Source: Crossaster papposus
Lineage: Eukaryota; Echinodermata; Asteroidea; Velatida; Solasteridae
Assembly (NCBI GenBank): GCA_037893245.1
Contig: JBAIAA010000321.1
Location: 1-64,000, forward strand
DNA length: 64,000 bases
Direction of reading: 5' to 3'
This document shows positions 30,355 through 59,510 of this stretch, one piece after another. Position 1 is the stretch's first letter; each line of letters starts with the position of its first letter. Below the pieces are notes generated by a model that was given only the letters and a program-made list of their open reading frames with translations, was not told where the DNA came from and searched no databases. Both the position numbers and the translations under genes were made by a program.

Positions 30355-31131
30355 CACTGCAAAAACTGTGGTGTTAAATTGTACACCAATGGTGTACAAT
30401 TTGATTATTTCCTGGTGTTTATATTGGGCAGGGATTTGGGTGTTAAATGACACCAGTTTGGGAATCAATTTTTTTAACATCAATTTTGGTGTACACTCTG
30501 ATAGCAAAATTTAACGTGGATATCACGTCATTTGCTCGTCATTCTAGCGAAAAGATGTACATATACATGTACTGTTTTAACTCTATAATTGTGTACATAT
30601 TAACTGCATGGACAAATTACGTAATGAAATATTACACATCCATTTACAATAATAACCTATTCCTACTAAATACGTACTACACACATAGCCATTGCCGTTG
30701 TTAGTTTTATACTACGCTTTTTTGTCCACGACGATGTCACAACTAGTTTTTATGAATAATGTCAAAGTTTGAAAACGAATAAAATGTAACGGGAATTTTT
30801 AACTATGTTTGCACAAAAATCAAAATTCAATCATGGAATCGTTTAAATAATTACATATTATGGTAAAAAAATGAATTTTTGGACTCAATACAACAATTTA
30901 ACATCGACTATTGTTAACATATCCCATAATTCCTTATCGACCAATCAGAGGGCTTTATTTCACACACGCATGCGCACTAGGTCAAATTTAACACCAAAAG
31001 TACGTAACACCAGTACTTGATTTGAAACTGATACTTCAAGAATCATTTTACTTCATTTTAACACCAATTTTCATTCCAAAAGATTAAAAAAACATTGGTG
31101 TTAAAATTTTAACACCACAGTTTGTGCAGTG
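30355..31131. mobile_element. GGTGTTAA-word palindromic element with shared core
   Basis: TA on both sides (30353-30354, 31132-31133). Ends CACTGCAAAAACTGTGG and, inverted, CCACAGTTTGTGCAGTG. The arms repeat GGTGTTAAA, TGTACACC and TTAACACC. The middle (about 30613-30955) is homologous to 58614-58977, which has quite different arms. Confidence 0.88.
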
Positions 31132-31176
31132 TATAGTGAAGGAGTAGATTAAAAAAGTAGGGGGGGGGGGGCATCC

Positions 31177-31208
31177 ACACTTGCACTTGCACTTGCACTT
31201 GCACTTGC
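31177..31208. repeat. (CACTTG)n microsatellite
   Basis: About five hexamer units after a G11 run. Confidence 0.9.
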
Positions 31209-32420
31209 CCCGCCCCAGGGTGCCCTTATTTGAAATCTTGAATTGCACACAATCAATCAGTTGCCTTAAGTTTCCCCTTGAAGAAACCCCATAGTGCGCC
31301 GCTGAATTATTGACATTACTACCGTGAAAGCTATATACTGCGATACATTGGGATCCGCAATTAGGCAGTTTCGTTATTTTATTCGAAACCTTTGATTCGT
31401 CTTCGGCTTGGGCTTCGCCTCCGAATTACTGAGAAGTAAATAGAAATGGAAGCAAATAGACATAGTTTAACTTTTGGGTTCACATTAATCGAGTGAATGT
31501 TTCAGAAGCACAACAGGCATCAGAATGTGGCTAGAAATCTTGCAGTTGGGAATCTAGCACTAACATCGTCTTAAACCAAAGACGAAGACAAAGCCAGGGA
31601 TTTAAAAAGGCCCGAAGTATGGGAGACAGCAGTGGCGGAACACGTTTGAGAGGGGGGATGGGGGGGGGGGGGGGGGGGGGTTGAATGAGCTAATTGTGGG
31701 GTGGGGTGGGGGTGGGGATTGGGGTGCCCTTGCCTCTTTTTTTCGCCGCCGCCTAAGTGTGTAAGTGTTTAGTGCCTGTATACAACTGATATAGCATCAC
31801 AATTTTGATTTGCATTAATTGGGGTCTGCGTGAGGTATAAAACCTACGGTTCATTTTACACGAAACATCCACACAATGTCCTGTACATCGGGTAAGAAGA
31901 CGCCATATCCCGACGAGCACTCTACCATCGGAATTGCCAGCCCCTCCAAACATGCCCACGGATCGATGCTTGCTTGTACCATTCAAGCGCTGTGTCGGCC
32001 GGCTAACGCAACTATCGATCGGGTATCATGAGACTAATTTCCCCTCTCCCAAAGCCAGAAACCCGAGAGAATGGATTTCAATTTCGTAGCGTACGTAGCA
32101 CTGCACACATCCAGAATATTGAGATTGGATGCATGTTTTGTTTGTGGGTGAAGTAGAGAGCCCGGGTATAGTATCGGGTTTTCGGAGCGGTCCCTACGTC
32201 TATAAACAGCAGATGTTACTGTATTCATGTGGCAATTTATATTCCTGGTATTGATCGGATCGAGCCCGGTAACAAATTAAGGATGCCACGGCTCACCCTA
32301 AGTCAAACCACTTAGTCCGCTCGTGACCTGTACACAACAAGCCGACGGGAGCGCTAAGTAAACCCACCTACCAATGGTTAACCAATTTCACCTTAATCAG
32401 TGCCACTACAGGAAAGGGTA
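31209..32420. other. Unassigned stretch with a G21 tract
   Basis: A G21 run at 31660-31680 and G/T-rich sequence to 31730. No exon or repeat boundary recognised. Confidence 0.4.
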
Positions 32421-32424
32421 TAGT

Positions 32425-32650
32425 GCAATATTGCATTCAAAGCGGATAGCAGGATGTGATTTCAACAGCAGATTTCCCGAATCTCATCCTCCGTCCAAAT
32501 TTATTTCCGGGGTTAAGTGGATGCGAATTTGAATCCTAACGACTTAACCCAGGGTGTGAATTTGGAATGAGGATGTGAGTTTGGAGCATTTAGATGCGAT
32601 TTTGAAAATCTGTTGTTGAAATCACATCCTGCACATCAATCACATTCCTT
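32425..32650. mobile_element. Family A element, ends decayed
   Basis: Left TTGCATTCAAAGCGGATAGC with AGGATGTGATTTCAACAGC; right GATTTTGAAAATC, GTTGTTGAAATCACATCC. Confidence 0.75.
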
Positions 32651-32652
32651 AG

Positions 32653-32802
32653 GGAATAACAGTGCGAGGACCCGGTCATTACTGCGTGCTAATGACCGGG
32701 TTGGGGGATGACCGCTGGTCGGCGAGGTCCATTACCAGCGGTTATCCCCAAACCCGGTCATTATCACGCAGTAATGACCGGGTCCTCGCACTGTGTTATC
32801 CC
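32653..32802. repeat. 150-bp near-perfect hairpin (ACCCGGTCATTA)
   Basis: The arm GTGCGAGGACCCGGTCATTA is mirrored by TAATGACCGGGTCCTCGCAC. Each arm contains its own smaller inverted pair, CCCGGTCATTA and TAATGACCGGG, so folding is two-tiered. Followed by TGAATAAATACCTTTTT. Confidence 0.88.
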
Positions 32803-33237
32803 CGTGAATAAATACCTTTTTAACGAGAATTTTTTTGAAAATGCTCCAAATTTCGTGACTTTTCTTTCGGCGATATTTCCAGTGTTTTGTTTTCAAGGGC
32901 ATTTTTTTAACTTACGCATAGTACCCTGTTTCTTCAATATGTGTTGTTATTATTATCCACACTTTGAGACCAGACTAGCTGACTACTGATGCCCACCGTG
33001 CATAGTAACGCGCTAGCGTTAACAGACGACACGCGCATTTTGAAAAATGCCAAGCGTATATATACAAACGTTCTACGCGTACATTTATAGCGCGCAGTAT
33101 CAAGATTTGACGCGTCCTTGTTACAAGTTACCGTAGGGCTGTTGCATTCGGCCAATCATTGGCTTACATGATGCTTGATTAATGCTGGTTCAGGGGGCAT
33201 TTATTCGCTTCTTCTTGAAAGCCGGGTAATTACTAAG

Positions 33238-33400
33238 GGAATAAATGTGTGTTCGAGAGGTTTTAATCACTCTGTTTAATACCGATTGGAGTCTGGGTGC
33301 TGATAATTACCCGAGCCGAAGGCGAGGGTAATTATCAGCACCAGACTCCAAGAGGTATTAAACAGAGTGATTAATACCGACCGAACACACATTTATTCCC
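33238..33400. repeat. 163-bp near-perfect hairpin (GGTATTAAACAGAGTG)
   Basis: GGGAATAAATGTGTGTTCG is mirrored by CGAACACACATTTATTCCC; inside, TTTAATCACTCTGTTTAATACC and TGATAATTACCC with their inverses. Followed by ATTCATAAATACCTTTTTT, resembling the flank of the preceding hairpin. Confidence 0.88.
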
Positions 33401-33409
33401 ATTCATAAA

Positions 33410-34450
33410 TACCTTTTTTGTAAAATTCAGCCCAAAAAGCCCCGAAAATCCCGGAAAATTGTCGCAAGTAAATTTCGGTGTTTCGCCATTCTGTCTGTGT
33501 CAAATGACATGTTTCCGCCTCTGTCGCTCTCTACACAATACATGCAATAAAGCGTATTTACTGTGAACCAGACTATTACTGCCATTGGCAACCTCGTTCC
33601 CAAGGTGTCGAGCTGTACGCGCTCAACACTACCCGCTCTTATTATTGGAGACGAGGTGCTGTTCAGAGTTGGAAATAAAGTGAGCCCTGGGGACGGAATG
33701 TTGTTTCCATCTATGTTTAAACACTTCCAGCCATGTCTTTATCGTCCGTTTAATACCGGCCACGTGACGGGCTCTCGACCAATAGGAATGCCTAAACTGT
33801 CCCAGGTATTTATGAATACAAAATAATGCCTTCCATGTGATCGAGTCTTGACCAATCAGAAGCTATCAACTCTCCTAGGTATTTATTAATATAGTGTAAG
33901 TAAGCCCACATACGAATGGGTAACCAATGTCCATGAATCAGTGCGCGTCTGGTCGACCTTTTGCTAGTTTCTTGAGTACTGAGAAATCAACCACTACATT
34001 CTCCTGCCTTGTACGTCCCGCTGGCGTGCAACCACCAAACGCCAACAGAGCTTCCTTCCTTCGGATACATCGGCTCTTGTGAGATCAAAGCCTCTTTTCC
34101 AGCTAGCCCCTGCGAGGGACATGGGACATAACAAATGCTTAGTCCGAGAATTATTCATTCGCCGTAGGACTTTTTTGCCAGATCTAAAAAAAAAAGGAAG
34201 GGGAAGAAAAGACAAGATCGACCTGCTCTGGCATCTTAGTATCGGTATCCCACAGCGACCACGTGGGCCTATAATTATATAGCAGCTCCAGGGAACAAGG
34301 GAAAGCTATCACGGTATCTGAGCTCCACATAGCCTCTGGGTCTATCGATCGCACTGACCGTACCGTTAATGCCGAATATCCCCTCTGTAGCTATTGTGGG
34401 GTGGCAAAAAAGGAAATCGGACAAGCATATCTCAACGGACAGGCATACTT
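33410..34450. other. Unassigned stretch, no gene recognised
   Basis: GTATTTATGAATAC and GGTATTTATTAATAT near 33.81 and 33.88 kb recall the AATACCT flank of the hairpins, so part of this may belong to the same element. No exon supported. Confidence 0.4.
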
Positions 34451-34455
34451 GCTAT

Positions 34456-34772
34456 ACCCTGAGGCCAATTCTACCTATACCAATTAATGGATAATCTTTC
34501 TAGAAGAAACATAACACTAAGATATCTTGATTTGGGCTAGTAGTTTTAGCTCAAGACCCTATTTTGTAAAGTGAAGTCAGTGGTCCTTTCGCACCGAAAA
34601 ATAACTAAATCGCAGTTTAGTTATTTCTCGGTGCCAAAGGACCCTAACTGCAGGTGCTTCACAAAACAGGGTCTGGGGCTGAACCTACTAGCCTAAATCG
34701 TAATATCTTGGTACCATTTTTCTTCTAGAAAGATTATCCATCCAGTGGTATGGGTAGTCTTGGCCTCAGGGT
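34456..34772. mobile_element. Inverted-repeat element (family H), about 317 bp
   Basis: TACCCTGAGGCCAATTCTAC is mirrored by GTAGTCTTGGCCTCAGGGTA. Inside, GATAATCTTTCTAGAAGAAA, AAGACCCTATTTTGT and TAACTAAATCGC have inverted partners up to the centre. Confidence 0.8.
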
Positions 34773-35060
34773 AGTGAAAGTATACATGACCGTATAATGA
34801 AGTATAATGGGCCACCCTTTATAGTTATAAGTACTGTACCTATAGCATGCCTTACACCATGATCATTCACGCTTTTGTATTTCAGAGAACAACTTGCAAT
34901 CGTCTAAATGGCAGCAATTAAGCTCAGGGAACGAGGCTGCAATGGCCGTTTGCAGCCCGTGTTCGGAATGCTGTGGCTGTAAACTCGTTACCTGGGTTGA
35001 TAATAGTTATTGCCGCCTCAGGGTAAACTCCCATCATGCTTTGTCGTAATGTAGACTTAA

Positions 35061-35530
35061 GCCCTGTCCGCACTGGACTTAATTTGGGCAAACTAACCGA
35101 GCCAATGGGTAACTTACCCATTTCAAGTCCAGTGCGAACAGCCTGGGTAACTTTCCTCACAGGTAACTTACCCACGCCGCGTGGGTAGTTTAACCGAGCC
35201 AAAGGTGCCCAGGAAGATTGACCAGGTCAGTTTAACCGAGCCAGAAAATCCAGTGCGGACGCGACGTCTCGGTTAAATCTTCCATCACCCGGTCGAATGA
35301 CTTGAACGAAGAAAATAATGTTGAGAGCTAGCGTCGGGAACAGACGATCCGGTCGTCAAGTCGCGGTCATAGGTCACGCAGGGCGCCCTCTTTATTGTTT
35401 TGGGGCCAGCTCGGTTAGTTTACCCATCGTCTCGGCAATTCTACCCGCGTCAATTAAATCCAAGTGCGGACGGTGGGAAAATTAACCCATCGGACTGTTA
35501 CCCGGCGTCATGGTCAAATTACCCAAAATG
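35061..35530. mobile_element. GGGTAA/TTTAACCGAG-word element
   Basis: Starts after TTAA (35057-35060) with GCCCTGTCCGCACTGGACTT. Repeats GGGTAACTTACCCA, TTTAACCGAGCC and CCAGTGCGGAC in both orientations. The right boundary is uncertain. The start resembles the GGCCCTGTCACAC end of family G. Confidence 0.6.
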
Positions 35531-35534
35531 TTTA

Positions 35535-36280
35535 GACATCTAAAAAAAGCTAGACTTGTATCGTTGTAGTCATTGTTCTGAAAATAGGCCGCGTCACAGA
35601 ACACGCGTATTGCGAACGTTCGCCCTCCCTGCGCACGCACGCCCACCATGAGCGTTTTGCGTACTTGCACATACCATACGCGGATCAATTTTCAGAACAG
35701 TTTTGAAAACGCATGTCATGTCTAGGTTTTATTTAGATGTCTTTGAATGTAGATGCCAGTGCGTTGGAAGTTTCCCGCGCTTTTGAATTGAGTAGCTGTG
35801 CCAATAGGTGCTATGCTTTGTGGCACTTTCAAACTATATTAAATTATTAGAGCGCTGGCTCGATGTACAAAGTGATGCCTGGTGGGCGCATCCATGTCTG
35901 TGCACAAACCTATGGAAACCTCAATATTGTGTACGGCTTTTGTACGACTATTTGCATATGTGCGTTTGTATTCTATACATTCCGTTACCAAAGCCGATAC
36001 GCCCAAAACCGAAACACACGATCATTAATGAGCTTTATTATTTTTATCTGCGTAAATAGCGCAAATGCGTGAACGTATCCACTGCAAATGATTTTGCCGT
36101 GACATTTTTTAACTGGCATGACGCGCTTAAGTTGTTTGCGTCTGTTCTACTTGCACGCGCGTTGCGTTTAGAGTACCCTTTCAAAATTGTATCCATCTTT
36201 TTGTATTATGTTCTACAACACGCACATGAATTCAAAATGTCTGCGCGCAGAATGGATTTAAAGTATCTTTGAGCGTAAGA
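35535..36280. other. Unassigned stretch, no gene recognised
   Basis: It contains ACGCATGTCATGTC and other short inverted pieces (GTGCAAGTACGCAAAACGC on the minus strand, 35653-35671, and ACTTGCACGCGCGTTGCG near 36.15 kb) that may be arms of another element. Confidence 0.35.
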
Positions 36281-36283
36281 ATC

Positions 36284-36503
36284 AGGGGCTAATTGTTGCT
36301 TAAGCACAAAACATGCTTGCTTACTCAAACCAGCTTACCAGCCACAACTTCATGTGATGTATATTGTTTGTGATTGGTACTTAGCTGTTGTTAGCAATAT
36401 CATAACAATTGCATGGAATGTTGGCTCCTTACCTGAATTATTAAGCAAGGGTTGTTGTGCTTAAGCACAATTTTGTGCTTAAGCAGCTCTATGAAATTGG
36501 CCC
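36284..36503. mobile_element. TGCTTAAGCA-word element
   Basis: Left GGGGCTAATTGTTGCTTAAG; right, inverted, GGGCCAATTTCATAGAGCTG followed by CTTAAGCACAAAA. Several TGCTTAAGCA palindromes lie inside. Confidence 0.6.
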
Positions 36504-36837
36504 GAGGAGTTAGCACTCTAGTAATTTAATGTAGTTTCATGGTTAAGCATGACTACAAGCAAAACATTGGCAACTATATATGACTGTGCAAAGTGACGAT
36601 GGACACATTGGTTTGCTGCGCGCCATTGTTTTATAAAAGCTGTCAAATATTTTGACATTAAAGAGCTATGCAGTGTCATTATTGTTGATGCAGTCCTTTA
36701 AATGCACCTTTGTGTCCATGCAATGTAATCTCATTTTCAATTATCGTGATGCAATTTACATGTAGTCGGGCAGATTGGTAAACCCAGAACATACAAATCA
36801 GGAATAAGTCGGAAAATGACTTTTTGAGATATTAAAT

Positions 36838-36864
36838 AATTAATTAATTAATTAATTAATTAAT
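36838..36864. repeat. (TTAA)n microsatellite
   Basis: Seven units of AATT/TTAA. It offers many potential TTAA target sites, yet no TTAA element is inserted. Confidence 0.9.
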
Positions 36865-36969
36865 TTGAATTTTGTTTACGTATGGTGTGCCCAAACAAAC
36901 TGGTTTATACTGGGGCCCTGCATACATCATTAAACACAATTGTATAAAGTAATACATCAAAGATCATCA

Positions 36970-37320
36970 ATAGAACCATGATAAAATCTTAGAGATAATT
37001 GGCAGTCTAGAAATAGGCCGATAGTTACATGTACTGCATTTATCTCCTCCCTTGTGAATTGGTGTTACTAAAGCTTGTTTCCAATCTTCAGGATATCGCT
37101 CACATCTTATATAATGAGTTAAATATGAGTTAAATATTTAATGATATAAGGTGAATCAATTTTGATAATTGTAATACTAATGCCATCCAGACCTGTTGCT
37201 TAATTTCCCAACCGAAATGGATGATATTTGCTTTTGAACAAACTCTTCTGTAATATTAGGTACTACGCAATCTTCATCAAGAGAATCAAAGATAAAGGCG
37301 TCAGTATTGTCATATTATTT
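36970..37320 (-). pseudogene. Non-LTR retrotransposon reverse transcriptase fragment
   Basis: Read on the minus strand, codons give PEDWKQALVTPIHKGGD, then NYRPISRLPIISKIL, the classical region of LINE reverse transcriptases where a WK-A-V-PI-K-GD block precedes NYRPIS. Upstream on that strand, DGISITIIKI and LTHI are also typical, but the reading frame is broken by at least one frameshift and stops. It is a 5'- and 3'-truncated dead copy of about 350 bp and is not part of a host gene. Confidence 0.85.
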
Positions 37321-37377
37321 CAAGTTCACGCAAAGGATAATGTCCAGCAGTACGCTTGCCGATTGTTAATAATACAA

Positions 37378-37850
37378 ATAATAATAATAATTACTTATAA
37401 AGCGCATTCCATCTTAATTAGAAGACCTCAAAGCGCTATACATAAAAAACAAAAACTAAACAACTTTATTTCAAATAAACTAAAAACATTGATTAGCATG
37501 ATAAAATATTCTTGTGCTAAAAATTTGGTAGACAATTTTAGCACATTGTTGAAAAGTGTTCATTTAATGTATCAGCAATGTCGGTGGGATCGTCAATATT
37601 TTCCCTATTTGAGAAAGTAATAGTTTGGTACAGTTGTCTATTTCTCAGGGAAGCTTCATAATGATACCCAATACAAGCATATCATAGCCAATAACTCCTT
37701 AGCTACAGGTTTATGGTGGATATCATTAGGAAGCTTATGAAATTTCCAATCTTACTATTTGCATATCTAAAAAAGTCATTTTTGACTTATTCCCGATGTT
37801 CGTGTGCTGGATCACAAATAGTAAAAACATGGAATTTGGCACAAAATCAT
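37378..37850. other. Unassigned stretch, no gene recognised
   Basis: An (AAT)n run at about 37378 begins it, followed by AT-rich sequence with no recognised repeat. Confidence 0.35.
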
Positions 37851-38050
37851 AGTTTGTCATGATTGTGAAAGGAATTTGGTTAAAGGGCCATCGGAAATTC
37901 GTCCCTTGAAAAAAATATAGGTAGAATAACAAGACGTTTTCAAAATGTTCAAAATGGCTGCCAATGCATGTTATTCTACCTATATTTCGTCAAACTTAGG
38001 TCAAATCTGCAATAGCCCTATATAGCCAAATATCTTTCCTGAAATGACAT
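37850..38050. repeat. Family D repeat
   Basis: GGGCCATCGGAAATTCGTCC, GTAGAATAACAAG, AAAATGGCTGCCAATG and, inverted, ATAGCCCTATATAGCC. Confidence 0.65.
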
Positions 38051-39412
38051 CACAACAACAGCGCCCTCGTGTGTCCGGTAAAAGCATAGACAATTTAAAA
38101 TGTTTAAAGCAGTGTACTTAGTTTCACTTAAATTAACCCAACAAGAATATAAAAGCTTTTGTAGCAAGTTGCACAAAATATGTTGCTAAGAAAAGTTAAT
38201 CGTATGGACCACTTAAGTCTTAGGATTACCAGGTGAATCAAAACATTTTTGTTTGATGAACTACATCCAAACTGTTTAAAAAAATTACCATAATATCAAT
38301 GTATATTGCTGGGTATCATTTCCGACCTGTCTCGTTGCATTACGTGAAGGGCTTCTGCCCTTTTGCGATCATATCCCGTAATGATATTACCGCGGAATCA
38401 AAGCTTCAGTGAGATGCAAATTCTGTCCGTTGTGGGACAACAATCGAATCATAATCTTGTTACTGTACAGACTGTGTGCGATATCCCCCCCATCCCTCGG
38501 GGGATCCGTGGTTGAACCAATTCTCAGTAAAAGGTATATAGCAACTATACGGAGTGCGTTCTCAGCTTTACACATAAACAAACAACTCATCCGCGTAAGA
38601 GCTGTTTCCGACTGTTTTGAATATCGAGTTCTCCAGTGTTCATGTTCTGTCGTTGCTTTAATATGATACACATATATAATATTTGGTTTAGGGGATTCAT
38701 AATTCATAGTACATATTGTGACGCTGACCTGTTTAAATAATAGTTGTGTGTTCATAAATGCTGGAAAAACCAAGAAGAAAAAGATATGTTATTGTATAGT
38801 CTGGGTTCTTGACTTCTTTCAGACGAAACAGAGAAACCTATATATATATAGACGTCAGAGAGTTATCGGTTTGGTAACCAGACTACTTGGCTTACACTCA
38901 TTCACTGATGTGTAACCGTATTGCAAATAAAATGTGGACTAACGAAATTTAATAAACAGGGGGCACTGACGGCTGCACGGTTGCATGACAATCGTTAGAA
39001 ATTGAAACTAAATTCCACTTTTGTTGACGATCACAGCACACCAGGTTCGTCCTTTCACAGGATGCTTGAGACTGTTATTCACTTTACAGTCAAGTAAGAA
39101 ATAATTCAGTAGTTCTGTTTTCTTGTTGCAAATGGTGTATAAGCTGCGTGCGTGGGAATGTGTAAACACCGACATTGGTGGACGTCGGACAACATAATTT
39201 TGGGGAAAACAATGGGTCCACGAATGACAGAAGGTCCACGATTCCAAATCGTGTACAAATTATACAGAGGTCTTCCGAAAAAGTTTGTAGTACAAAAGAA
39301 AGAGGTATAACGGGAGGACAATCGGGGGTCTATCAAGGAAGGTGTTTACACACACCCATGTATGTGGCAGGGGATACCAGTACTGACTATTTTGATAATT
39401 TGTCATTCGCTG
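38051..39412. other. Unassigned stretch with a weak inverted repeat
   Basis: GTGTAAACACC near 39160 and GGTGTTTACACAC near 39339 form a loose inverted pair with a GTGCGTGGGAATG / CCCATGTATGTGG context. No gene recognised. Confidence 0.4.
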
Positions 39413-39605
39413 TTGCAAAATAGAGCACTTTCAGGGCCCAATTTCATCCGAAGTTCACATCCTTAAACACAAGCTGACAGTCCTGTGTATGACTTCCAAT
39501 TTATTTTTATTAATTTGTTTACAAACCCTCGAGTTCATAGCAAACTCAATGTTTCAATATAAAGCAAAGCAATTAATTTGGCCCCGTAAGCAATTTTAGA
39601 CTGAT
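39413..39605. repeat. Direct repeat with 26063-26280
   Basis: GCAAAATAGAGCACTTTCAG, TCATCCGAA, GTTTACAAACCCTCGAG and AAGCAATTTTAGA match the earlier copy in order. Confidence 0.6.
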
Positions 39606-39656
39606 TTACAGGTCTGTACTCATAGCAACGTGCTCTTTAGATAAAGGTTAATCTCT

Positions 39657-39945
39657 TCAAATTGTGTTTTTATTATAATTCTGCTTGTTTAAATAATTGG
39701 GCAATGTACGCTACAACAAAATATGCTGCTTTAATGTCACCGTGTTTTTTTTCTTCCATTTTACTCCGCAGCTCTGCCCTTACATAAGGGTTTATAATCT
39801 TCTCTTCAAATTGTTAACTCCGAAATTCTTATTTTCTTTTAATAATTCGGCAATGTACGCTACAATTCATATGCTGCTTTAATGTCATCGTGCTTTTTTT
39901 TCTTTTCATTTTGCTCCGCAGCTCTGCCTTTACATAAAAAACATT
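39657..39945. repeat. Tandem duplication (about 149-bp unit) before exon C
   Basis: GCAATGTACGCTACAA, ATATGCTGCTTTAATGTCA, TCCGCAGCTCTGCC and TTACATAA appear twice, 149 bp apart. Each unit contains a T-rich tract followed by CTCCGCAG, which mimics a splice acceptor. Confidence 0.9.
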
Positions 39946-40068
39946 AAAAAGTGAGCACAAGCCTTTGATAGGATCAAGCAAATCTTCTTGGCAGCTCACG
40001 TATGACTGGTTTCTCCGTCTTATTTTTCATTCTCTATATGTCTTGGGTTTTTCTTTCTTGATCTGCAG

Positions 40069-40184
40069 TGCAGCAGAGCTGCGTCATGTAATGCTGAGTT
40101 TGGATGACACGGTTGATAAGCACGAGGTTGAAGACTTGATACGGGATGCGGACGCGGATGGGGACGGTCATGTGAATTACGAGG
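40069..40184 (+). CDS. Calmodulin-like protein, exon C (EF-hand 3 exit helix and EF-hand 4)
   Basis: In phase with exon B (AG|T giving Ser101) after an intron of about 12.4 kb. It encodes SAAELRHVM, then the divergent stretch [16 protein letters not shown], and EF-hand 4 loop [11 protein letters not shown], whose final ligand Glu140 is split across the next intron. The acceptor is GATCTGCAG at 40060-40068; the donor is GAGG|GTATGT at 40185. At 116 bp it is exactly 20 bp shorter than the 136-bp vertebrate exon, balancing exon B. Residue 115, the trimethylated lysine of most calmodulins, is Thr here, and Met124 is Leu. These differences, together with the extra C-terminal residue, argue for a calmodulin-like paralogue rather than the invariant calmodulin. 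Confidence 0.94.
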
Positions 40185-40911
40185 GTATGTTTTTACTGGG
40201 TTAGGCTTATCACCCCATGCAATAAATTAAGAGATATAAAAAGATAACTCAATAATACATAAGCGTAATATTTTGTGTTGGTTTCATCGAAGATAGACGG
40301 ACGGGTAACAGTATATACAATTACCGTGCTAATTTTAGGATGATTTTTATACTTTCTGTCATTTCAATTAGTATCGATTTGAGGAGCTAACCATACATTC
40401 CTATGTAAATATGTCCTGTATTAGGCTCATAAATTATAGGTTTCATTGCAAAACAATATGGATAAAAGGCATACATATTTCGGGGTATATCTTAGTATAA
40501 TACATGACGATAATACATGTGCCATTGAATGTCATCGATAAAAATGCAACGGTCCTACAAAACCCAATTTTATTTGAGGCGGGAGTGGCTGGGAGAAACC
40601 AATGACAATGTTTTGTGATAAATTTGTATGACATTCAAGAGTCTGTTATACTCTCTCCTGTGTAATTGCTTGGACAAAAGCAATAATCACTTGCCTTCAG
40701 TACCCCCTTTTTTGGTATATCACACGGGCCCCTAAACGGTGAATCATAGTTACTTCGCTGTCTATGAGTTTCATGTGAGTTTGGCAGTGTGCTTTTTGGT
40801 TCCAGTTTTCCTTTGAAAATTACAATGTGCATTGATTTTCTCAAGCTTTGACAGGTTAATTCAATCATCACCCTCCTCCCCTACTTACTGACACGGCAGT
40901 GTCACATGGTT

Positions 40912-48891: not shown

Positions 48892-49280
48892 AGGGACCGT
48901 ATACGTTTGGTAATTAGAACCCACTGTTTGTTTCAATCCCATATAGTTATAGTTATATACCATAAAACTAACCTGTAACAATTTCATTTCAAAAGGTGGT
49001 AGCGATTTTGAGATATTGCCGAAAATCTGGATCAGTTATGTCCACGCAGAAAGAATAATCTGCATTGGAATACACAGTCTGAGAAACGTCACTGCAGTAA
49101 CGCTTCTCCGATTCAAATTTTGGGGGATAAAAAGGGATATCTTTTTCCATAACCGCAGTACTTCGAAGTGAAAAGCTTCTAAAAATGCATTATACTGTCC
49201 AAAGCTGCTGTACTTCTTACCAAGTAAGTTTGTATTGCCATTAATTTTTGGAGTAATAACCAAACGTATACGATATCCCT
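48892..49280. mobile_element. Family C TTAA element
   Basis: TTAA at 48888-48891 and 49281-49284. Ends AGGGACCGTATACGTTTGGT and ACCAAACGTATACGATATCC. A family A element starts only a few bases to the right. Confidence 0.87.
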
Positions 49281-49289
49281 TTAACACTA

Positions 49290-49597
49290 GGAATAAGCAT
49301 GATGTGATTTTTCATTCAAATCGGACACGGTCCTTATAGCAGTATGTGATTTCAACAAAGGATTTCCAAAATCACATCAAAATGCTTCAAATGTACTTTT
49401 GTTATCCAAATTCACATCCTGGTTTAAGTGGATGTTAATCCAGTGGCTGTGAATTCGAATCTTATACGAATTAGCCCAGGGTGTGAATTTGGACAGATGA
49501 TGTGAATTTGGAGCATTTGGATATGATTTTGGAAATATTTTGTTGAAATCAAATTCTGCTAAGGACCGTGTCCGCTTTAAATGCAAAATCACATCAT
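49290..49597. mobile_element. Family A element
   Basis: TA at 49288-49289. Left GGAATAAGCATGATGTGATT; right TGTCCGCTTTAAATGC, AAAATCACATCAT, with the last bases lost before TAGG. Confidence 0.82.
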
Positions 49598-49604
49598 TAG
49601 GCCA

Positions 49605-51800
49605 AGAGTTTTAGTTATAGCCTGGAAATAGCTCATAAAAAGCTGAATTTGTCAGGATAGGTCCAGGAATATAAGTAGAATAACATTCTTAGCTCTTTCC
49701 AAAATCCAAGACGGCGTCCAAAATGGCTCAAGTTTTCTATGTTTATCATAACTTTACAACCAAACAAATGTAAATAAAAAAATTAAGTGCCTAAACATAA
49801 TGTTTTACGGTATAATGAATAACGGAATCATTATTTAGAAAGTTCAAAACCAAGATGGTGTCCAAAATGGCAGACATTTTCAAATTATATTCTAACTTTG
49901 CAGCCAGAAAAGTTAGAAATACATTATACATACAAGTATCTAAACTAGTGTTTTAATACACAACTAATCTAACAAAAACCTGTGCAAAACTCATGGGTAG
50001 CCAGAACCAAGATGGCCTAAAACTGTGTGCACCTTTATGGTATCATATCGCATCGGGGGCGAATTTCATGAAAAATCGTACATTATCGATGTTATTTAAA
50101 TACAAACTATTATATATTGCAATATATACAACCTGGTGAAGTTATACAATCCCAACAATCATTAAAATTCAAATTAACCTAATTAACAAATGGGCGAATT
50201 TATCCTTAAGTGCCGTTTTGCGTTTTGCGAAGAGGCGAGTTTAAAATAGCATCGGCGCTTTGGTGCGCGTACTGACTTTAGCGTTTTTCACGAAGAGGCG
50301 AATTTATGGCGCAGTGGGGAAATGTATACATTCTGACGCTCACAGGGGCGAATTTGCTAAGTTATCGGTTTTGTATTATTGTTGTCGTGTTTAAGAAGAG
50401 GTACTTCTAATAATTGAAGAATTCTGCAAAACGAATAACCTTTAATTTCTTAAAGTTTGATATAATTCTTGAACAAGATTGGAATCTCTTCTTTCACGTG
50501 ATACCTTAATCTTGCATATTCTATGGATCTTTACATTGCAAACTGCTAAACGAAAAAAGGACTAACTTTACACGCGATGTTCTCGAAAGTTTGTTCAGAC
50601 CGTGAAAGGCTAAATTCGCCTCTTCGTGGAAACGGTGACGATATGACGCAAACATACATTTAGCACAGCTCTAAATTATACCGCAGTCTGTGTTTTAGAA
50701 AAGGCTTCTTTACAAAAAAATACAAGGCACATGAACAAAGTGAAAATGTGCCATGAAATGTTATTGCTTGTTTTGGTTTTACATTATTTGTATAATTTCA
50801 AAATGATTTTTTTTCAACCTAAAGTAGACTTCTAGACTGCGGCTTACAGTTTGTGATGTAAGATTTAGCGCAGTATTACGCGTTAATGATACATCGCGGT
50901 GACCGTTGGTGATAAAGCGCAATAGCACAGCACATTATTGTCAATTTTCTTTTCGGTTTTTCATTTTGTCGTCGCCATTTAATTTTTTTAATTACACGTA
51001 GCCCAATTCCAGTGTCACATTTGGCAAGACTGTATCATTATTTACTTGTTTATCAACAAGCTTATTTGTCATAGATTCCTAAAACTATATATTTTAATAT
51101 TTCAAATGAAATAATATGAAACTCAGCAAAATGTATCAATTTTTTTTGGATAAAACAATAGGCTACTAAACAAATTGTCGCCCTCTAAATCAATATTATT
51201 AGTATACGGATACCCAAATAGGTCTCCATCATTAACTTGTAAGTTTCAACATTACAATTGATTCAGGGCACAAATCTGTAGAATTTGCAGCTTTTGTAAT
51301 GTCATAAACGTTTTCTTTGGTTTGTTTATTTCTAGAAACATAATACTAGGCCACTTTCGTTGAATTTTAGTTATGTTTGGATGTCAAGAAACTACGAATA
51401 AAAATAGAAAGGTTTTGGTCGTAGATTCATTGTTTCCTAAATCATGTGTTTAGACTCTTTATATGTATTTCGAACATGCTTATTATTGCATTGTGAACAC
51501 CACATTGGTTATGGATACTTTATGGATAATGATTGTAGTATATTTCGTGTATTTACAACATATGCTAAGACACATTATTTGTTTTTAAAGCTTGTCTGGT
51601 TGCAAAGTCATTAAACAAATTGAAAATGGCAGCCATTTTTGACGCCATCTTGGATTTCGGAACGAGCTTCAGGGGATTTTCGAGAACTGTTAGTGTAATT
51701 ATTGTTCTACTTATATTACTGGATCTACTTTGAAAAATTCAGCGTGTTACGAGCTATTTCAAGGTTTTAGAATGATCTAATGCTCTTGGTGTACATGCCC
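49605..51800. mobile_element. 2.2-kb element with diverged terminal repeats of about 150 bp
   Basis: GAAATAGCTCATAAAAAGCTG, shown here as GAAATAGCTCAT and AGCTGAATTTGTCA, plus TATAAGTAGAATAA and CCAAGACGGCGTC on the left, match inverted GAAATAGCTCG, GCTGAATTTTTCA, TATAAGTAGAAC and CCAAGATGGCGTC on the right. The middle repeats GAGGCGAATTT in both orientations. Confidence 0.6.
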
Positions 51801-52460
51801 TTTCGTAGTGTAACAACCTGTCTGTTTACAAGTCACAGGTACAAGCGACATACTGATATTGCACGATCTTGTTTTTTAAGCAGAGTCAATTACATGGAAG
51901 TGTAATTTTTCATCATTTGCGTTTTCGTATTAATACACGCCATATCAATTTCAGCGCTGTTATTTAGATCGGCCTTGGCTACAACCATTGGCATTCTGAA
52001 GTGTGCTTCAACGAGCGGAAATTACACTTAACGTGTGTTTGTGTTGAGTCGAATGTCTCTATTTTATATTCATGCGCACTTTAGCTACCGCGGCTCCATC
52101 GCAGTGCAGTATATTAAAGCATTGGTTACAAAATCATCTTACGAGATAAAAAGCACGTGAGTACCACATCTGAAATATTTATAGACCCGTCGAAATGCCT
52201 CTGAACAATTTCCCGAGAACATTTCAAGCGTGGTATTTTCATATCCCCCTTGCTGCATACAATTACACACTAATTAAATTACAAACTTTATTTATCGCGC
52301 CAGCGCGGTCCAATTGTAAATTACTGAAAGGGGCATTCCAATTTTAAAACAGCGTCTTCGATGTTATTTACGCAATAAACACGTATAAGGGCTTTGCACT
52401 TGAGGTGAGCTCATAATATTCAGTTACTCATCATCCATTCAAATCTTTGGGACTAGTTAG
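51801..52460. other. Unassigned stretch, no gene recognised
   Basis: No exon or repeat copy recognised. Confidence 0.35.
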
Positions 52461-52464
52461 ACTA

Positions 52465-52676
52465 CACTGAAAAACTGTGTTTAGCGAGTAAACACCTTTC
52501 TAAACACTTTCTTGCTATCAGTTTGTAAACATGTTTACATGCTAAACATGTTTAGCATGAGGATGGATCGTGTTTAGCCATTGGACATTGATGTTTAGGA
52601 ACTGGACACGTGCGTTTAGCTTCTAAACATGTTTACAGGAAAAGTGTTTCCTCGCTAAACACATTTTTTTAGAGTG
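52465..52676. mobile_element. TGTTTAG-word palindromic element (212 bp)
   Basis: TA on both sides. Ends CACTGAAAAACTGTGTTTAG and, inverted, CTAAACACATTTTTTTAGAG, with CGAG/CTCG next to each. AAACATGTTTA and TGTTTAGC words fill the middle. Confidence 0.85.
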
Positions 52677-52757
52677 TACCGAATGTGCCCATAGGCCTTA
52701 GTTGTAGAAGATCACTGGGCAGAAGCAACTGCTCATCAGTGAAAAACTTTCACACTA

Positions 52758-53069
52758 GGATCGGGCATTATGTGATGTTGCATTCAAAGCGGACATAGTC
52801 CTTTAGCAGGATGTGATTTCAACAACAGTTTTCCAAAATGTTCCAAATTCACATCCTCTTCAAACTTTCATCCCGGATAAGGTCGTTAACATGCAAATTT
52901 AAATCTAGTGGATGTGAATTTGGACTATAACGACTTAATCTAGGATGTGAATTTGGAAGAGGATGTGAATTTTGAACATTTTGATGTGATTTTGGAAATA
53001 TTTTGTTAAAATCACATCCTTCTACTGGCCGTGTTCGCTTTGAATGCAAAACAACATCATGTCCGTTCC
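52758..53069. mobile_element. Family A element, both ends intact
   Basis: TA at 52756-52757 and 53070-53071. Ends GGATCGGGCATTATGTGATG and CATCATGTCCGTTCC. The arms fold along most of the length. Confidence 0.87.
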
Positions 53070-53229
53070 TAGCGTCAAACCATGTATTAAAATTATGTTG
53101 GTTTAACAAGTTGATTGGTTACAAGTTTGTTAAAATGTTAACCAACACTGTCTACATTTATGCGGGTAATCCGAAAATAAAAGACAACGTCTACTTTCGT
53201 TCAACTCCAATTGACTGTAATTATTATCG

Positions 53230-53480
53230 GCGTATGAACAGACAACCCCCCCCCCCCCCCCTAAAGTCCCTCAATACAAAAACGACTGAGCACGTTTCGG
53301 TAAAATAACCACTAATTGTTAAGAGAAACTGATTAGGAATCCAGCCATACTCCACATTCAATTACAAAATGTGCAGCGTTTTGAGGATTATTTGTTCTAT
53401 ACATAAATTGTACAATTTTGTCCATAATATAATTGTTATTGACAAAATAGTATGGCTGGATTCTTAATGACGATTTCTCT
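53230..53480. repeat. Inverted repeat near 53.4 kb
   Basis: TTAGGAATCCAGCCATACT and AGTATGGCTGGATTCTTAA are inverted partners about 120 bp apart, with TTGTACAATTTTG in the centre. A C14 run lies to the left. Probably a small transposon. Confidence 0.7.
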
Positions 53481-53589
53481 ACTTATTAATGACTAAAAAG
53501 TGCTCAGTATAAATATTTATATGTAGTTATTTTAATATTTTTGTGTATTTAATTATAATATTTTGTATAGGTTTATCCAACAAAAATAG

Positions 53590-54460
53590 CGTTTAAATTC
53601 ATCTTGGTAGTGGCCAATTTGAAGCGAATTAGCTCTCTGCTGTCGTTCCCGTGGTTCGTATTAAAGTTCAGACGTTCAAATTCGTTTTTATAATTATCTG
53701 ACTTATTCATAATGTTCTCCTTCTACGTTGAAGTTTGGGCGTTCGGTTTAAATGGTCATTCAATTTAGCAGTGGGTTTGATAAAGGCTTATTTGCATTTG
53801 AATCGTATTTTCGTTTTTGCGCATTCTATTTAGCACTTTTTTCATTCAAAATAAAGAAAAACGCGAGATGCGAAGTATTAAAAGTGTTAGGCAATGCTTT
53901 TTTTTTCTAGTTTAGTTTTTTTTTAAAGTATCTGTCTCAATCAAATCTGAGATCTGGGTGTTCTTATATCTCTAACGTGTTTTTCGTGCTTCTTTTCATT
54001 AACTTATTTTTCTTGTTGATGTGCAAGAAAGCTGGGAAAAGTGATACATTTAGGTATTTTGTCGCTGCTTTTTGTGGCAGAATTTTGTAAGAAATGTCCC
54101 TGGTACTCAAATGGAATAAGACAATGTACAATTCTAACGAACAAATGAATAACATGAACCGTATTTGAATTCCTTTTCTTACATTCCATAAATGCTTGCC
54201 TATGGTGAATTCGAATGGCCAAACTGGCGCAACTGGAAGCTCGAGCGAATTGGAATGACTAAATGTGAAATGTTAATTTGAACGCACAATTGTTTTAATC
54301 GAATCATCGACCTGGGCTTCATACTGCGAATTTAAACCACAGTTCAGTGGGTTTTCGCCTATGCAAATTTGACAGAACAAAACGCAATTGAATCAATTAT
54401 TTTTTTGTTTTCTGTGGCAGATTTTAGTTTTACGTTTGAATGGCAAATGTTTAATTTAAC
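53590..54460. repeat. Family R repeat, second copy (inverted)
   Basis: See 29340-30340. CAGAATTTTGTAAGAA, AATTCTAACGAACAAATGAA, CATAAATGCTTGCCTATGG and CAAACTGGCGCAACTGGAAG run in the opposite order. Confidence 0.75.
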
Positions 54461-54469
54461 CCTTTGTCA

Positions 54470-54840
54470 TTTGAGTATTATAAGAAAATGAAAGGCTAAA
54501 TTAATTATGTTTCCATTAAAAACATACGACTATCAATGCCACTATTTTAATAAGCAGTAAATGATATTATATAAATATGAATAATACAATTGTAATTCTA
54601 AATAAACTTTGAAATTTGAATTCATACTTAAATTGTTTGTGTATTGTTTCTTGGAAGAGGCAATGTGTCCAAGTCCATAATTATACAAACATAAAGACGT
54701 TAATTTAAAATGCTCTATATTAAGAAAGGGGGAAAACGAAACAAAATATGTGACGGTGACCAAGCATTCAGGAGTTGTACTTATAGGATCTCAACATTAA
54801 TTAACCAATTACCGATTCCTTTTCTCGGCTTACCCGGCAG
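54470..54840. other. Unassigned AT-rich stretch
   Basis: No exon or repeat copy recognised. Confidence 0.35.
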
Positions 54841-54844
54841 CGAT

Positions 54845-55175
54845 TTATTCCCCAAACGACATCGCCATAGAACTGGTTTTTAGCGCATCTGATTGGTTGT
54901 ATAACATCTACGCCATATATTCATCTATGTGTCGCATTGCATGACGTGTACTAGGGTAAACAATCCCAGAGTCATAGGGTTCAAAAGGGTTAGGGTTAGG
55001 GTTAGGGTCAATAAGTTGAGAGTCCTAGGGTCAATAAAACCCAGAGTCCTAGGGTCAATAAGTTAAGAATCTTAGGGTCAATAAATTGAGAGTAAAATTT
55101 ACTACCATGACGTAACAGATAGGCAATCAGATGCGCTAAAAACCAGTTCTATGGCGATGTCGTTTGGGAAAATAA
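54845..55175. mobile_element. Inverted-repeat element with near-perfect 50-bp ends and telomere-like core
   Basis: CCCAAACGACATCGCCATAG and AACTGGTTTTTAGCGCATC are mirrored at the right end almost without change. The core contains three to four TTAGGG repeats (54986-55009) and then AGTCCTAGGGTCAATAA in about four tandem copies. Confidence 0.85.
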
Positions 55176-55179
55176 AATG

Positions 55180-55795
55180 TGCTACCCGGCACATCGCTCG
55201 GCTACTAAAATGTTAATAAAATGAAAAGACGAAGAGGATTGTTAGGTCCATCTGTTTCGGCTCTAGATGGAAAACACACACATGCATTTCGATGAATGAG
55301 CCATGTGCTCTACGTCTGTAAAATATACTGCAGTCTCTTATTAGTCTACTGCGCGTTCCCATTGGATTTAATGTTGTCATATAAACACCGCGGTACGTTA
55401 TCCAAACAAGTTTAATGGGAACACGGCTTAATTAAGTAATTTGGGACACGATCAAGCGGAATGAGTCGGATGTTGGGGAATCCCAAAAATGTTTTAATCA
55501 GAATTGTGTTCTTCGTTGGTATTTAAACAAATTTACATAACTCGACAACAAAACATCGTATCAACATGGGGTTTTCAGTTTTTAAAACGTTCAAATGCCC
55601 TTTTTAAAACTACATGAAAACTCATTTTGACCGGGGCCGACATCCGACTAATTCCGCTTGTTCGTGTCACATTTGGGCACAGGGATATTCCTGGTTTATC
55701 GCCAGATATGTTTAAAGCAAGACATGGGACGAAGGGAACTCCAATCCCTTGTGGTCGCTGTGTTTGCGGAATGTTGCGGTAAAATTATTATTAGT
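55180..55795. other. Unassigned stretch with a loose inverted repeat
   Basis: GACACGATCAAGCGGAATGA near 55447 and TTCCGCTTGTTCGTGTC near 55654 are partial inverses, suggesting an element at about 55445-55672. Not confirmed. Confidence 0.5.
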
Positions 55796-55975
55796 CCTCC
55801 ATACATATCATACATAATCACTCTCTAGACTATTGCTACCTAACGCACCCCCCCCCCCCCCCTTTACAAACCTAAACAGAATTTAACAACATTCCACAAG
55901 CACAATGAACACCACAAAAGAAGGGGAAAGGGGGGGGGGTTGTCTCCGTCCCAATCTTGCTTTATAATCCCTCAT
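55795..55975. mobile_element. Family N copy with C15 tract
   Basis: CTATTGCTACCTAACGCA followed by C15, then ACATTCCACAAGCACAATGA and CCAATCTTGCTTTAT. Matches the disrupted copy at 1030-1415. Confidence 0.55.
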
Positions 55976-56252
55976 CATCCAACCAATTTGTTTCTTTCTA
56001 GCTTGCAAATCATGATCAATAATTTTAGCATTTCCAAAGCATTTGAAATGACCGTTTACCATAAAACTAACACCCACTTCCATAATGTTTCTTATTTCAT
56101 AATGTGCAACTCAATGAGTTGTATCAGTCACATGTTTGTATTCGAGTATCACTCTGCCACACTGCACGTGCCACTCTGCTTGGGCTCTGACAAACGAAAC
56201 AACGCCCTCTGTTGATAGCCACCGTTGAGGTTATTTTGGTCAAAGTTCACCG

Positions 56253-56608
56253 TTATTTGCTCTTCACCACTTTTGCAGGTACAAACATAAAACTGTAGTA
56301 AATTTTGTACATGATGTCAGTGACTGGCGCCGGGAGAAAGCAGAGCATATAAACCGTCAGTTTAGAGGTCCAGTTTCCGGGAAAGTACCGCTCGTGTGGG
56401 TTTTCGTCGATGAGGGCGCTTGTGCAAGCATCCACCACTGGCGCGAGGGTAGTCACTGAGAAGCCCTGGGATGCGTTGACAATGTGATCTTTCGTCGCCT
56501 TGAAATACTCTGTACCGTAAGCCTCTCGCACTTCGTCAGTTGTTTCGCTCCAGACATTGTCCAGGCCAGTGGACATGTATTCTCTAGTAAACATGGCGGA
56601 CCCTCCAC
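56253..56608 (-). CDS. BDH1-like short-chain dehydrogenase, terminal exon (substrate-binding C-terminus)
   Basis: A 356-bp exon with acceptor ACATTTCAG, joined in phase 1, encoding about 118 residues to a TAA stop. It covers the variable SDR C-terminal domain: GGSAMFTREYM, then a helical region with DEVREAYGTEYF, and the end segment NPHERYFPGNWTSKL followed by a hydrophobic run and PVTDIMYKIYY. The ERY-P pattern and (T/S)D-(I/L)MY near the C-terminus fit the SDR9C group; in BDH1 this part binds phospholipid and substrate. The protein ends KVVKSK. Together the three exons give about 225 residues; BDH1 is about 340, so roughly the first third is missing to the right. No clear AATAAA was found downstream on this strand. 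Confidence 0.92.
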
Positions 56609-56657
56609 CTGAAATGTAACGTAAACGTAGGACGCACCATAACCCAGTTTTCTAATA

Positions 56658-57665
56658 AATTCAAATTCATGCACGCAGGCGCATAAATACACAATGTAGG
56701 ACAGGAGGCTAGACGCGAAATCGGCCCATTGAAAAATGTACAGGGGTCCATAAATTGTTGCCATTTTTGTGACTGAATAGAGTTGATGGTAAGTGTTCTA
56801 GAATTGTGTTATTGAGTTTATAAACATGTAAATTTTGTTCCAGAATGAATGATAACTCAACGTACTTTGCTAACATTTAGAGAATCCTTGTTCAGGGGTT
56901 GTAGTACTTGTAGGACGCTATGGTCACAGACAAAATCTTGGATTTCGAGTAAAATATGTGTTCACTTTGAATTGTAAGTACATTTACATATTATAGTCAG
57001 TTTCCCTTGTGGTTTATTTGTGTATTACAAGACAACGAGTGGTATTCCCATTGGGTGATCCCCACAATGTCGTTTCCCGGGTTATATGTTCAAATGTATC
57101 CATTCTTTACAGAATTGAATGTTGATTTTTACAATTAAAATATGTATACATTAAGCATCGAATACAACTCCATTTTGTATTCCTCTTGGGCCTTCCGGTG
57201 CCTGAAATCATCCTAGGTATTCTGCTCTAAGTGGGTTTTGTTAGGGTACAAAATTAAACAAAAATGTTGTTGTACTGTGCGCACGAGGTCGATGAAAATC
57301 AACGAGTCAAAGAAAATACTGTTACTTTGTGGAAGTACCATTCACCACATTGCGGACATGATCGCAGGCAATTAAACACGGCGCGAACTACAACTTGCGC
57401 TGGCACAAACACTGTAATTCACGCCGTGATTCAAAGCCTGCCATTCTGTACGCAATGTGGTGGATGGTACCCCGACAAAAATCATAGTATTTTCTTAGAC
57501 TCGTGTTTTTGTTACCCCAAATCCTGTCCTAAATCAAATAGAGCAAATCTTGGAGAAATTAGGAGAAAATTACAAAACTGTATGGACCCCTGTACATTTT
57601 TCAATGGACGATTTCACTTCTTGCCCCCCAGCCTATTTATGCGCATGCGTGCATGAATTTGAATG
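56658..57665. mobile_element. 1-kb element with 110-bp terminal inverted repeats
   Basis: TTCAAATTCATGCACGCAGG with GCGCATAAATA and GAAAAATGTACAGGGGTCCA on the left; the inverse of each on the right. A 130-codon opening (57264-57656) with CTQCGGWYPDK reaches into the right repeat; I do not recognise it and doubt it is a gene. Confidence 0.82.
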
Positions 57666-57718
57666 TATTAGTGAAAATGGTCTATTACAATGAATATAGT
57701 CCTGCAGAATACTACAAA

Positions 57719-59510
57719 AATATTGCATTTAGTGATACAAGCACCAAAATTGGCACACATGCTCATTTTGGGTCACTTTACACAAAAAAAACGTTAGCCA
57801 AATTAAAATCCAAGATGGCCGCCATTTTTGAAGATGGCCGCTAATGAAGGCCAAATATCACCGAAATATTGATGTACGGATGGAGAGAATGGCAATACAA
57901 GCACAAAACTTGGCATTTAACATCTGTTTGGCCTCCTTGTTGTTGGCATATCCAAAACAGGATATTAGACACTTGAAAATTCAAGATGGCCGCCATTTTC
58001 CAAAATGATCGCCACTGATTGGCTAGTAGTAGTTTTACCAAGGATCAAACAGTAATACGGACCAAAATGGGCATTTAATCTCCATTTGAATCCATTAATA
58101 TGCTTAAATTGTCAACCACTTGATAATTCAAGATGGATACCATTTTTAAAGATGGCCGCCACAAGATGACTCAGCCTATATGTTACAAAAAGTGACACAT
58201 AAATCGTAACATATCTGGTACAAAGAAGACATACAACACACTCTAACAACAGATTGGTTGAAAATAACCAATATATTGGTCGATTTCAACCAATCCAGTT
58301 GGTAGATATGTGGATAACCAAACTATTGGTTAAAATAACCAATCTGATATTGGTTACCTAGTTAATCAATTCGTATTGGTTATAACACCAACCAATGCAA
58401 TGTTGGTTAATTTAACCAATCCGCAATGGTAGGACTCCAACCAATTTGTATTGGTTACCACGTAACCAATTTAAATTGGTTATAGCACTAATACATAATG
58501 ACAGGGCTGCAACCAATTTATATGCAACCAATTTATATTGGTTAACACGCAACCAATTACATTGGTTACAACACCAACCGATATGTAACAACCAATTACA
58601 TAACGTGGACTAATTACGTAATGAAATAATACCAATACCAATTTATTACACATTGCAATTACGCATACATAATAACCTATTCCTAATAGATATTACCTAC
58701 TGAACACTTACTACACACTTAGCTATTGCCATTGTTAGTTTTATAGTTCGCTTTTTTTGTCCACGACGAAGTCACAGCTATTTTTTTTATGAATAATGCA
58801 TTTGAATACGGATGAAATTTAATGTGAATTTTTCACTATGTTTGCACAAACATCTAAATTCAATCATGGAATCGTTTGAATAATTACATATTATGGTCCA
58901 AAAAATGCATTTTGGACTAAATACCACAATTTAACAGGGACTATTGTCAAAACTATTTGTTTCACTTCTGATTGGTCAGTTGCTGTAGGCACATTTCCTA
59001 CATTATGAATAACCTATAGATTGGTTAATACCTTGGTTACAAGCTCAACCAATATGACTGGTTGAAGGACAACCAACATATTGGTTATAAATAAACAATA
59101 GATTGTTTGATACCTTGGTTGCAAGCTTGACCAATATGACTGGTTAAAGGACAACCAACATATTGGTTATGAATGACCAATATATTGGTTGGTAACTTGG
59201 TTGCAAGCTCAATGAAAGCAAACTTGGAAAACATGGACGCCATCTTGAAAAAATGGCCGCCATCTTGAATTGTTAGGTTGTTTCTATTTTTGAATTGATA
59301 AGGGGTACATTTGGTGGATAGTTGCAACTTTTAGTGCTTGTATGACCAATTAATCCAATGTAACATTAACTGTTACCATTTAGTGGCGGCCATCTTGAAT
59401 AAATGGCCGCCATAATGGATTTTAATTTGGCTAACGGTTTTTTTGTGTACAGTGACCCCAAAAGAGTAGTTACGCCAATGTTGGTGCTTGTATCATCAAA
59501 TGCAATATTG
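57719..59510. mobile_element. 1.8-kb element with 130-bp terminal inverted repeats, hosting a TTGGTT-word element
   Basis: Left TATTGCATTTAGTGATACAA, GTTAGCCAAATTAAAATCC, AAGATGGCCGCC; right the inverse (GGATTTTAATTTGGCTAAC, TTGTATCATCAAATGCAATA). Several ATGGCCGCCAT words lie inside both arms. Confidence 0.82.
58246..59215. mobile_element. TTGGTT-word palindromic element with shared core
   Basis: The left arm (about 58251-58590) has some twenty TTGGTT or AACCAA words; the right arm (about 59015-59215) has more. The core (about 58614-58977) is homologous to the core of the GGTGTTAA-word element at 30355-31131. The left start ACACTCTAA resembles other word elements; the right terminus is not clear. 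Confidence 0.85.

Follow-up and report, generated by a model that had tools for sequence, protein, structure and literature searches.

A stretch of 64,000 nucleotides from the echinoderm Crossaster papposus (GenBank assembly GCA_037893245.1, contig JBAIAA010000321.1, positions 1 to 64,000 of the forward strand; hereafter, the window) contains two short, gene-less elements that have the same core between unrelated arms. They represent two families: E1, whose arms are built around the repeated word GGTGTTA, and T, whose arms are built from the words TTGGTT and AACCAA. From comparison of the sequences, the arms appear to have been exchanged as blocks, rather than worn away by mutation. If so, elements of this kind can acquire different ends, which are probably what the machinery that moves them recognises, and still keep their cargo. 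E1 and T are most likely CACTA/EnSpm-like elements, membership in CACTA/EnSpm proper not being claimed. The explanation favoured here, which is considered probable, is that both are CACTA/EnSpm-like families resembling miniature inverted-repeat transposable elements (MITEs), and that recombination placed a single core between two sets of arms that already existed.

The genome assembly comprises 1.02 Gb in 1841 contigs, and the G+C content of the window is 39.4%. Local alignment of positions 30606-30917 with positions 58595-58951 gave a score of 315, compared with a mean of 21.6 and a maximum of 30 for 200 dinucleotide shuffles, which rules out chance similarity of the cores. Global alignment of the two cores gave 273 identities in 307 aligned columns, and BLAST gave 85.7% over 265 columns. 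The core spans from TGGACAAATTACG (beginning TGGAC) to GACTATTGTYAA, is 309-345 bp long, and is not a known Rfam RNA, the whole window giving no match at the gathering scores. E1 and T have the same layout, i.e., an end with the skeleton CACTSYAAAAACNG, followed directly by the word of the family in an array, the core (always in one orientation), a second word array, and the other end. The arms of the two window copies match each other at the level of shuffled sequence only. Thus, an earlier first-pass annotation of this DNA, made from its letters alone, was right both in calling the cores homologous and in calling the arms unrelated. That annotation had also named a possibility that would refute its reading, namely that the core is a separate transposon, inserted independently into two unrelated word-repeat elements and flanked by target duplications at its edges. 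In an alignment of 9 E1 and 14 T copies (J69a skipped), the similarity ends at identical core edges on both sides, with small changes right at the left core edge in L084 and a few other copies, and neither target duplications nor inverted repeats were visible by eye at these edges. The 11-mer TCTGATTGGTC, which we take to resemble a CCAAT box, lies just outside the right core edge in both families, in opposite orientations (30939-30949 and 58967-58977).

Each DNA search of the genome scored only its 40 best candidates, from totals of 1917 (E1 core), 2278 (T core), 570 (right end of the outer element that surrounds T in the window), 2713 (T arm and core) and 1953 (E4, a third family described below), so that the copies compared are the closest relatives and not a random draw. 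From these, 15 T copies (J69b, J69a, L083-L089 and 6 of 30 T loci) and 9 of 15 E1 loci were picked by hand for comparison block by block. Between T copies (105 pairs), the identity of the cores was 0.887-0.980 (gaps uncounted), the left arms aligned over a mean of 84% (minimum 50%) of their length with a mean identity of 0.947, and the right arms gave scores of 93-671. Between T and E1 (135 pairs), the identity of the cores was 0.869-0.924; the left arms scored at most 30 and the right arms all scored below 30, where shuffled E1 arms reach 23-32. As the core identities between E1 and T overlap the range within T, age by itself does not account for arms that no longer resemble each other. Gradual decay is excluded, because T copies whose cores are as divergent as those of E1 and T retain left arms of about 95% identity. 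The overlap of the cores, taken together with the unrelated arms, is what points to exchange as blocks.

The behaviour of the arms within a single family was analysed in those T loci that could be cropped by motif (21 of 30), giving 190 pairs, the window copy being left out. The mean pair identity was 0.964 for the left arm and 0.966 for the core, whereas the fraction of gaps was 0.341 for the left arm and only 0.026 for the core, with arm lengths of 265-721 bp. The corresponding figure for the right arm (0.817) was not used, as the crop extended into other modules. Thus, the word arrays of T gain and lose units by slippage, while their letters change no faster than those of the core. The first-pass annotation had proposed that arm words are replaced and homogenised while the core is inherited, by a special arm-diversifying process or by modular capture of arms. 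One core lineage with two internally repetitive arm sets, swapped as blocks, agrees with part of this proposal. Continuous replacement of words left no sign within T. Of the two processes, modular exchange fits better. The annotation had further expected one core clade with several different words; among the closest matches there are just two core-bearing words. A third arm type seemed to occur in L090, a partial match, which proved to be a truncated T.

The E1 copy of the window is a complete non-autonomous element with inverted ends of the form CACTGCAAAAACTGTGGTG and TA on each side, and the bounds given to it by the first-pass annotation (30355-31131) were exact. The annotation also described the words as present in both orientations. 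This holds for both arms of T and for the right arm of E1, whereas the two exact copies of GGTGTTA in the left arm of E1 have a single orientation. The left arm has 2 copies and the right arm 5, compared with means of 0.05 and 0.10 in shuffled sequence. A total of 15 E1 loci were examined, 8 that were cut out first and 7 more picked from the same list of matches. Ends of the CACTGCAAAAACTGTGGTGTTAAA type were present in the first 8, L004 and L005 each differing at one of the first bases. Both ends could be located in 13 of the 15 loci, and identical 2-bp flanks were found in 12 of these 13 (9 TA, 3 CA); none of the 13 had identical 3-bp flanks, and one had no flank match at all. Copies of E1 were 93-100% identical to the core region of the window copy in the best 40 of 1917 candidates, a sample which shows recent copies but not how old the family as a whole is.

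The T copy of the window is harder to delimit. The first-pass annotation had placed it at 58246-59215, as an element in its own right ending at these two positions. Its left end is at 58239, its own right terminus was absent in the end scan, and the copy is nested in a larger element that has other ends. There are 20 copies of TTGGTT to the left of its core and 10 to the right, compared with means of 0.89 and 0.48 in shuffled sequence, and they occur in both orientations. Complete T elements elsewhere are about 1.16 kb long and have ends of the form CACTCTAAAAACAGATTGGTT. One of them, the second T of the outer element J69 (J69b), is complete at 1163 bp, with CACTCTAAAAACAGATTGGTT on both ends and TA flanks on each side. 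Seven further T copies (L083-L089) were taken from other places. A motif scan located both ends in L086, L087 and L088, with flanks of TA/TA for L088 and AA/AA for L086 and L087; the latter two share flanks and are thus counted as one insertion. The left flank of L085 is common with that of L086 and L087, and its BLAST match runs as far as the final base of T. The left end of T is seen in L084, and the typical left end is absent in L083 and L089. With up to 4 mismatches allowed, the fetched loci, some of which overlap, gave 44 matches to the site without T, AACAG-TA-ATGG. The same AACAG-TA site was found filled in 2 fetched loci, where the left junction with T follows the TA, which is duplicated. 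Because both empty and filled versions of this site are known, T is a real mobile unit. T is a transposon in its own right, and the window holds a copy of it without a right end.

Table 1. Positions of the elements and their parts in the window (rc, reverse complement)
Feature	Position	Strand	Remarks
E1, complete non-autonomous element, 777 bp	30355..31131	+	ends CACTGCAAAAACTGTGGTGTTAAA / rc CACTGCACAAACTGTGGTGTTAAA; GGTGTTA-word arms
E1 target duplication TA	30353-30354 and 31132-31133		
E1 left end and arm	30355..30608	+	
E1 core, 309 bp	30609..30917	+	
E1 right arm and end	30918..31131	+	
T copy, without own right terminus	58239..59215	+	left end CACTCTAACAACAGATTGG; TTGGTT-word arms and core; right limit approximate
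Core of T copy, 345 bp	58606..58950	+	
82-bp tandem unit of TTGGTT/AACCAA words, right arm of T	59003..59212	+	
Outer host element of T copy	57697..59541	.	imperfect inverted ends TAGTCCTGCAG; AAGATGGCGGCC-type words; unrelated to E1
Outer element, 3-bp duplication ATA	57694-57696 / 59542-59544		
E3, short core-less TTGGTT-word palindrome	5735..5950	.	ends atypical
E4, 212-bp core-less element, word TGTTTAG	52465..52676	.	ends CACTGAAAAACTGTGTTTAG / rc CACTCTAAAAAAATGTGTTTAG; TA duplication

CACTA elements have ends beginning with CACTA and a 3-bp target duplication, in the available part of PMC4158355, and the CMCT group as a whole has CA..TG ends with duplications of 2-5 bp, those of ESTA being TA (PMC12730594, in excerpt). 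E1 and T carry repeated subterminal motifs, both direct and inverted, as CACTA/EnSpm elements do, and the 5'-CA..TG-3' ends and 2-5-bp duplication of the broad CMCT group. The first bases are CACTG in E1 and at the left end of E4, and CACTC in T and at the right end of E4; CACTG is an alternative start of CACTA-type ends. E4 is a third family with the end type of E1 and T, and shows that the word differs among families of that end type. Its relatives (about 218-238 bp) consist mostly of the element and TA alone (query positions from about 9 to 224 of 232; best 40 of 1953, that of the window included). A strict TA duplication, as in Tc1/mariner elements, is ruled out by the CA duplications in 3 of 12 E1 copies and by the AA of L086 and L087 in T. 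At position 759 of L045, a further CACT-type end, CACTGTAAAACCAGGTGTTTAAC, lies 118 bp before an E1 copy and possibly belongs to a fourth word family.

CACTA/EnSpm elements are moved by a Tnp2/Transposase_21 transposase from an element with the same ends, and the broad CMCT group is characterised by a DDE transposase with C(2)C and H(3-4)H motifs. Genes for a transposase of the EnSpm type are present in the genome: the 61 candidates scored gave 27 matches to PF02992 (Transposase_21), 26 of them above the cut-off and 10 in open frames of 637-930 codons. Among them are two trios with near-equal scores, C103, C191 and C616 (844-846 codons) and C72, C487 and C164 (674-763 codons), which are candidate EnSpm-type elements in several similar copies. 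A link between the C616 gene and the ends of E1 and T was considered and rejected on the two adjoining stretches described below.

How could one core come to lie between two sets of arms? The words of each family are predicted to be bound by a DNA-binding protein that is encoded by a transposon and specific to that family, just as the subterminal repeats of Spm/En are bound by TNPA; their place, repetition and orientation fit such a role. Recombination between two such elements may have occurred by template switching in the repair of an excision gap, or by ectopic conversion. Each combination of arms and core would then have been amplified by the machinery specific to its word, with the core carried along. 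In a tree of the cores, the E1 clade is separate (ultrafast bootstrap, 100) and attaches inside the unrooted T tree, where nearby support is 78-91. Several points weigh against recombination between CACTA/EnSpm-like elements. Midpoint rooting of the same tree makes E1 and T sister clades, and, the tree being unrooted, either family may have received the core. Only two arm sets were seen on the core among the closest matches. The 3-bp duplication of CACTA/EnSpm was not seen (E1, 2 bp in 12 of 13 copies and 3 bp in 0 of 13; T, 2 bp in L088, L086, L087 and J69b), and T begins with CACTC, unlike the classical CACTA or CACTG. No CACTSYAAAAACNG-type end was present in the two 2.2-kb stretches inspected next to the PF02992 gene of C616, the only gene so examined. 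Furthermore, T subfamilies diverge from each other just beyond the left core edge, so that the edge is variable within T too, which slightly lowers confidence in the favoured explanation. A more general version, in which non-autonomous elements here routinely pass a conserved core between arm sets, each an array of binding sites for a different transposon-encoded protein, and MITE lineages thereby outlive the loss or silencing of any partner, is put forward only tentatively.

Three other explanations have to be weighed against recombination between two elements. The arms could have turned over rapidly in place, by slippage, conversion and homogenisation under a co-evolving binding protein, one lineage switching between TTGGTT and GGTGTTAA with its core and ends kept. 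Such turnover is consistent with the range of left-arm lengths in T and a gap fraction 13 times that of the core, with the tandem repetition of the 82-bp word unit, with the likeness of the words (TTGGTTAA compared with TTGGTGTTAA) and with the one or two copies of AACACCAA that 6 of 8 T copies have in their left arms; in addition, the tandem repeats targeted by VANC in Arabidopsis VANDAL elements turn over fast among related copies (PMC5735166, in part). It is nevertheless unlikely, as the left arms of T remain about 95% identical at core divergences equal to those between E1 and T, the arms of E1 and T differ also in the non-word stretches beside the core, and no intermediate arms were found among the closest matches.

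The second explanation is that E1 and T arose by deletion from two autonomous elements which share an internal non-coding region, e.g., a transposase promoter, and of which the arms differ together with the binding proteins; the swap would then have taken place between the autonomous parents. Deletion from autonomous elements is the typical origin of MITEs, and the genome has PF02992 genes, but no autonomous element with the core was found in a search that lacked depth, and this origin is regarded as possible though doubtful. Finally, the core may itself be a mobile or captured segment, such as a fragment of a host promoter or a transposon lacking inverted ends, and may have entered two unrelated word elements independently. 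The sharp core edges and the existence of E3 and E4, which are word elements without a core, would agree with this. There is no visible duplication or inverted repeat at the edges, however, the orientation and central position of the core are equal in both families, and no solo core occurred among the fetched loci, which were chosen by similarity to E1 or T, no systematic search for solo cores having been made. Independent entry is thus the least credible account and is thought very improbable.

The outer element around the T copy of the window was recognised from the long flanks of four relatives (L039-L042), which put the T stretch inside a distinct element of 1.8-3.3 kb with TAGTCCTGCAG ends. 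Its inverted ends are 86% identical in the window copy (124 columns) and 81-82% identical in L039-L042 (about 160 columns). A 3-bp duplication was present in 5 of 5 copies, that of the window included (TAG, CAA, GGA, ATA, ATA). The words GATGGC and GGCGGCCA occur in and near its ends, and the longer copies have an array of the word GGTAATA in addition. Many copies of the outer element carry T, and J69 and J72 each hold a second T in inverted orientation. In L039, the outer element lies within a long tandem array of a unit of about 43 bp, which gives its exact insertion site. Of the remaining features of the window, the left arm of E3 is 72% identical to the left arm of T over 101 columns, and a 175-bp tandem repeat (2.6 copies, the unit starting with TGGCGGCCATGTTGG) is present at 23953-24404.

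If arms are exchanged as units, then the histories of the inside and of the ends of a MITE may disagree, and a classification resting on only one of the two, be it the ends or the inside, would be misleading. E1 and T, having the same core and the same type of end but different words, form a natural set for asking whether the words choose the transposase system that mobilises an element. In the titles and abstract openings of open-access literature, no case of one core with two arm sets was met, which is not a claim of absence from print.

The closest likeness is to CACTA/EnSpm elements (CMC; e.g. Spm/En, and Tgm of soybean), which have ends of the 5'-CACT...AGTG-3' type and subterminal motifs in both orientations. 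In the available part of PMC2613891, CACTA elements have conserved ends but, from family to family within one species, different subterminal motifs, to which TNPA-like proteins bind, and how these repeats co-evolve with their binding proteins is posed there as an open question. E1 and T differ in having a 2-bp duplication instead of 3 bp (PMC4158355, in part), in the CACTC start of T, and in a core that is common to elements with unrelated motifs. With ESTA and the wider CMCT group they share CA..TG ends and duplications of 2-5 bp, TA in ESTA; ESTA differs in being described from fungi, with TET/JBP genes (excerpts of PMC12730594). Like MITEs, E1 and T are short, gene-less and present in many copies, the closest of which are near-identical within the best 40 candidates, but they are unlike MITEs in their long word arms and in a core common to two families. 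VANDALs are Mutator-like and encode proteins. VANDAL/VANC elements of Arabidopsis resemble E1 and T in having non-coding motif arrays that vary strongly between related elements; those arrays are read by a protein that the element encodes, a reading that is putative for the words of E1 and T, and their turnover occurs by the formation of tandem repeats, unlike the exchange of blocks proposed here (PMC5735166, in excerpt).

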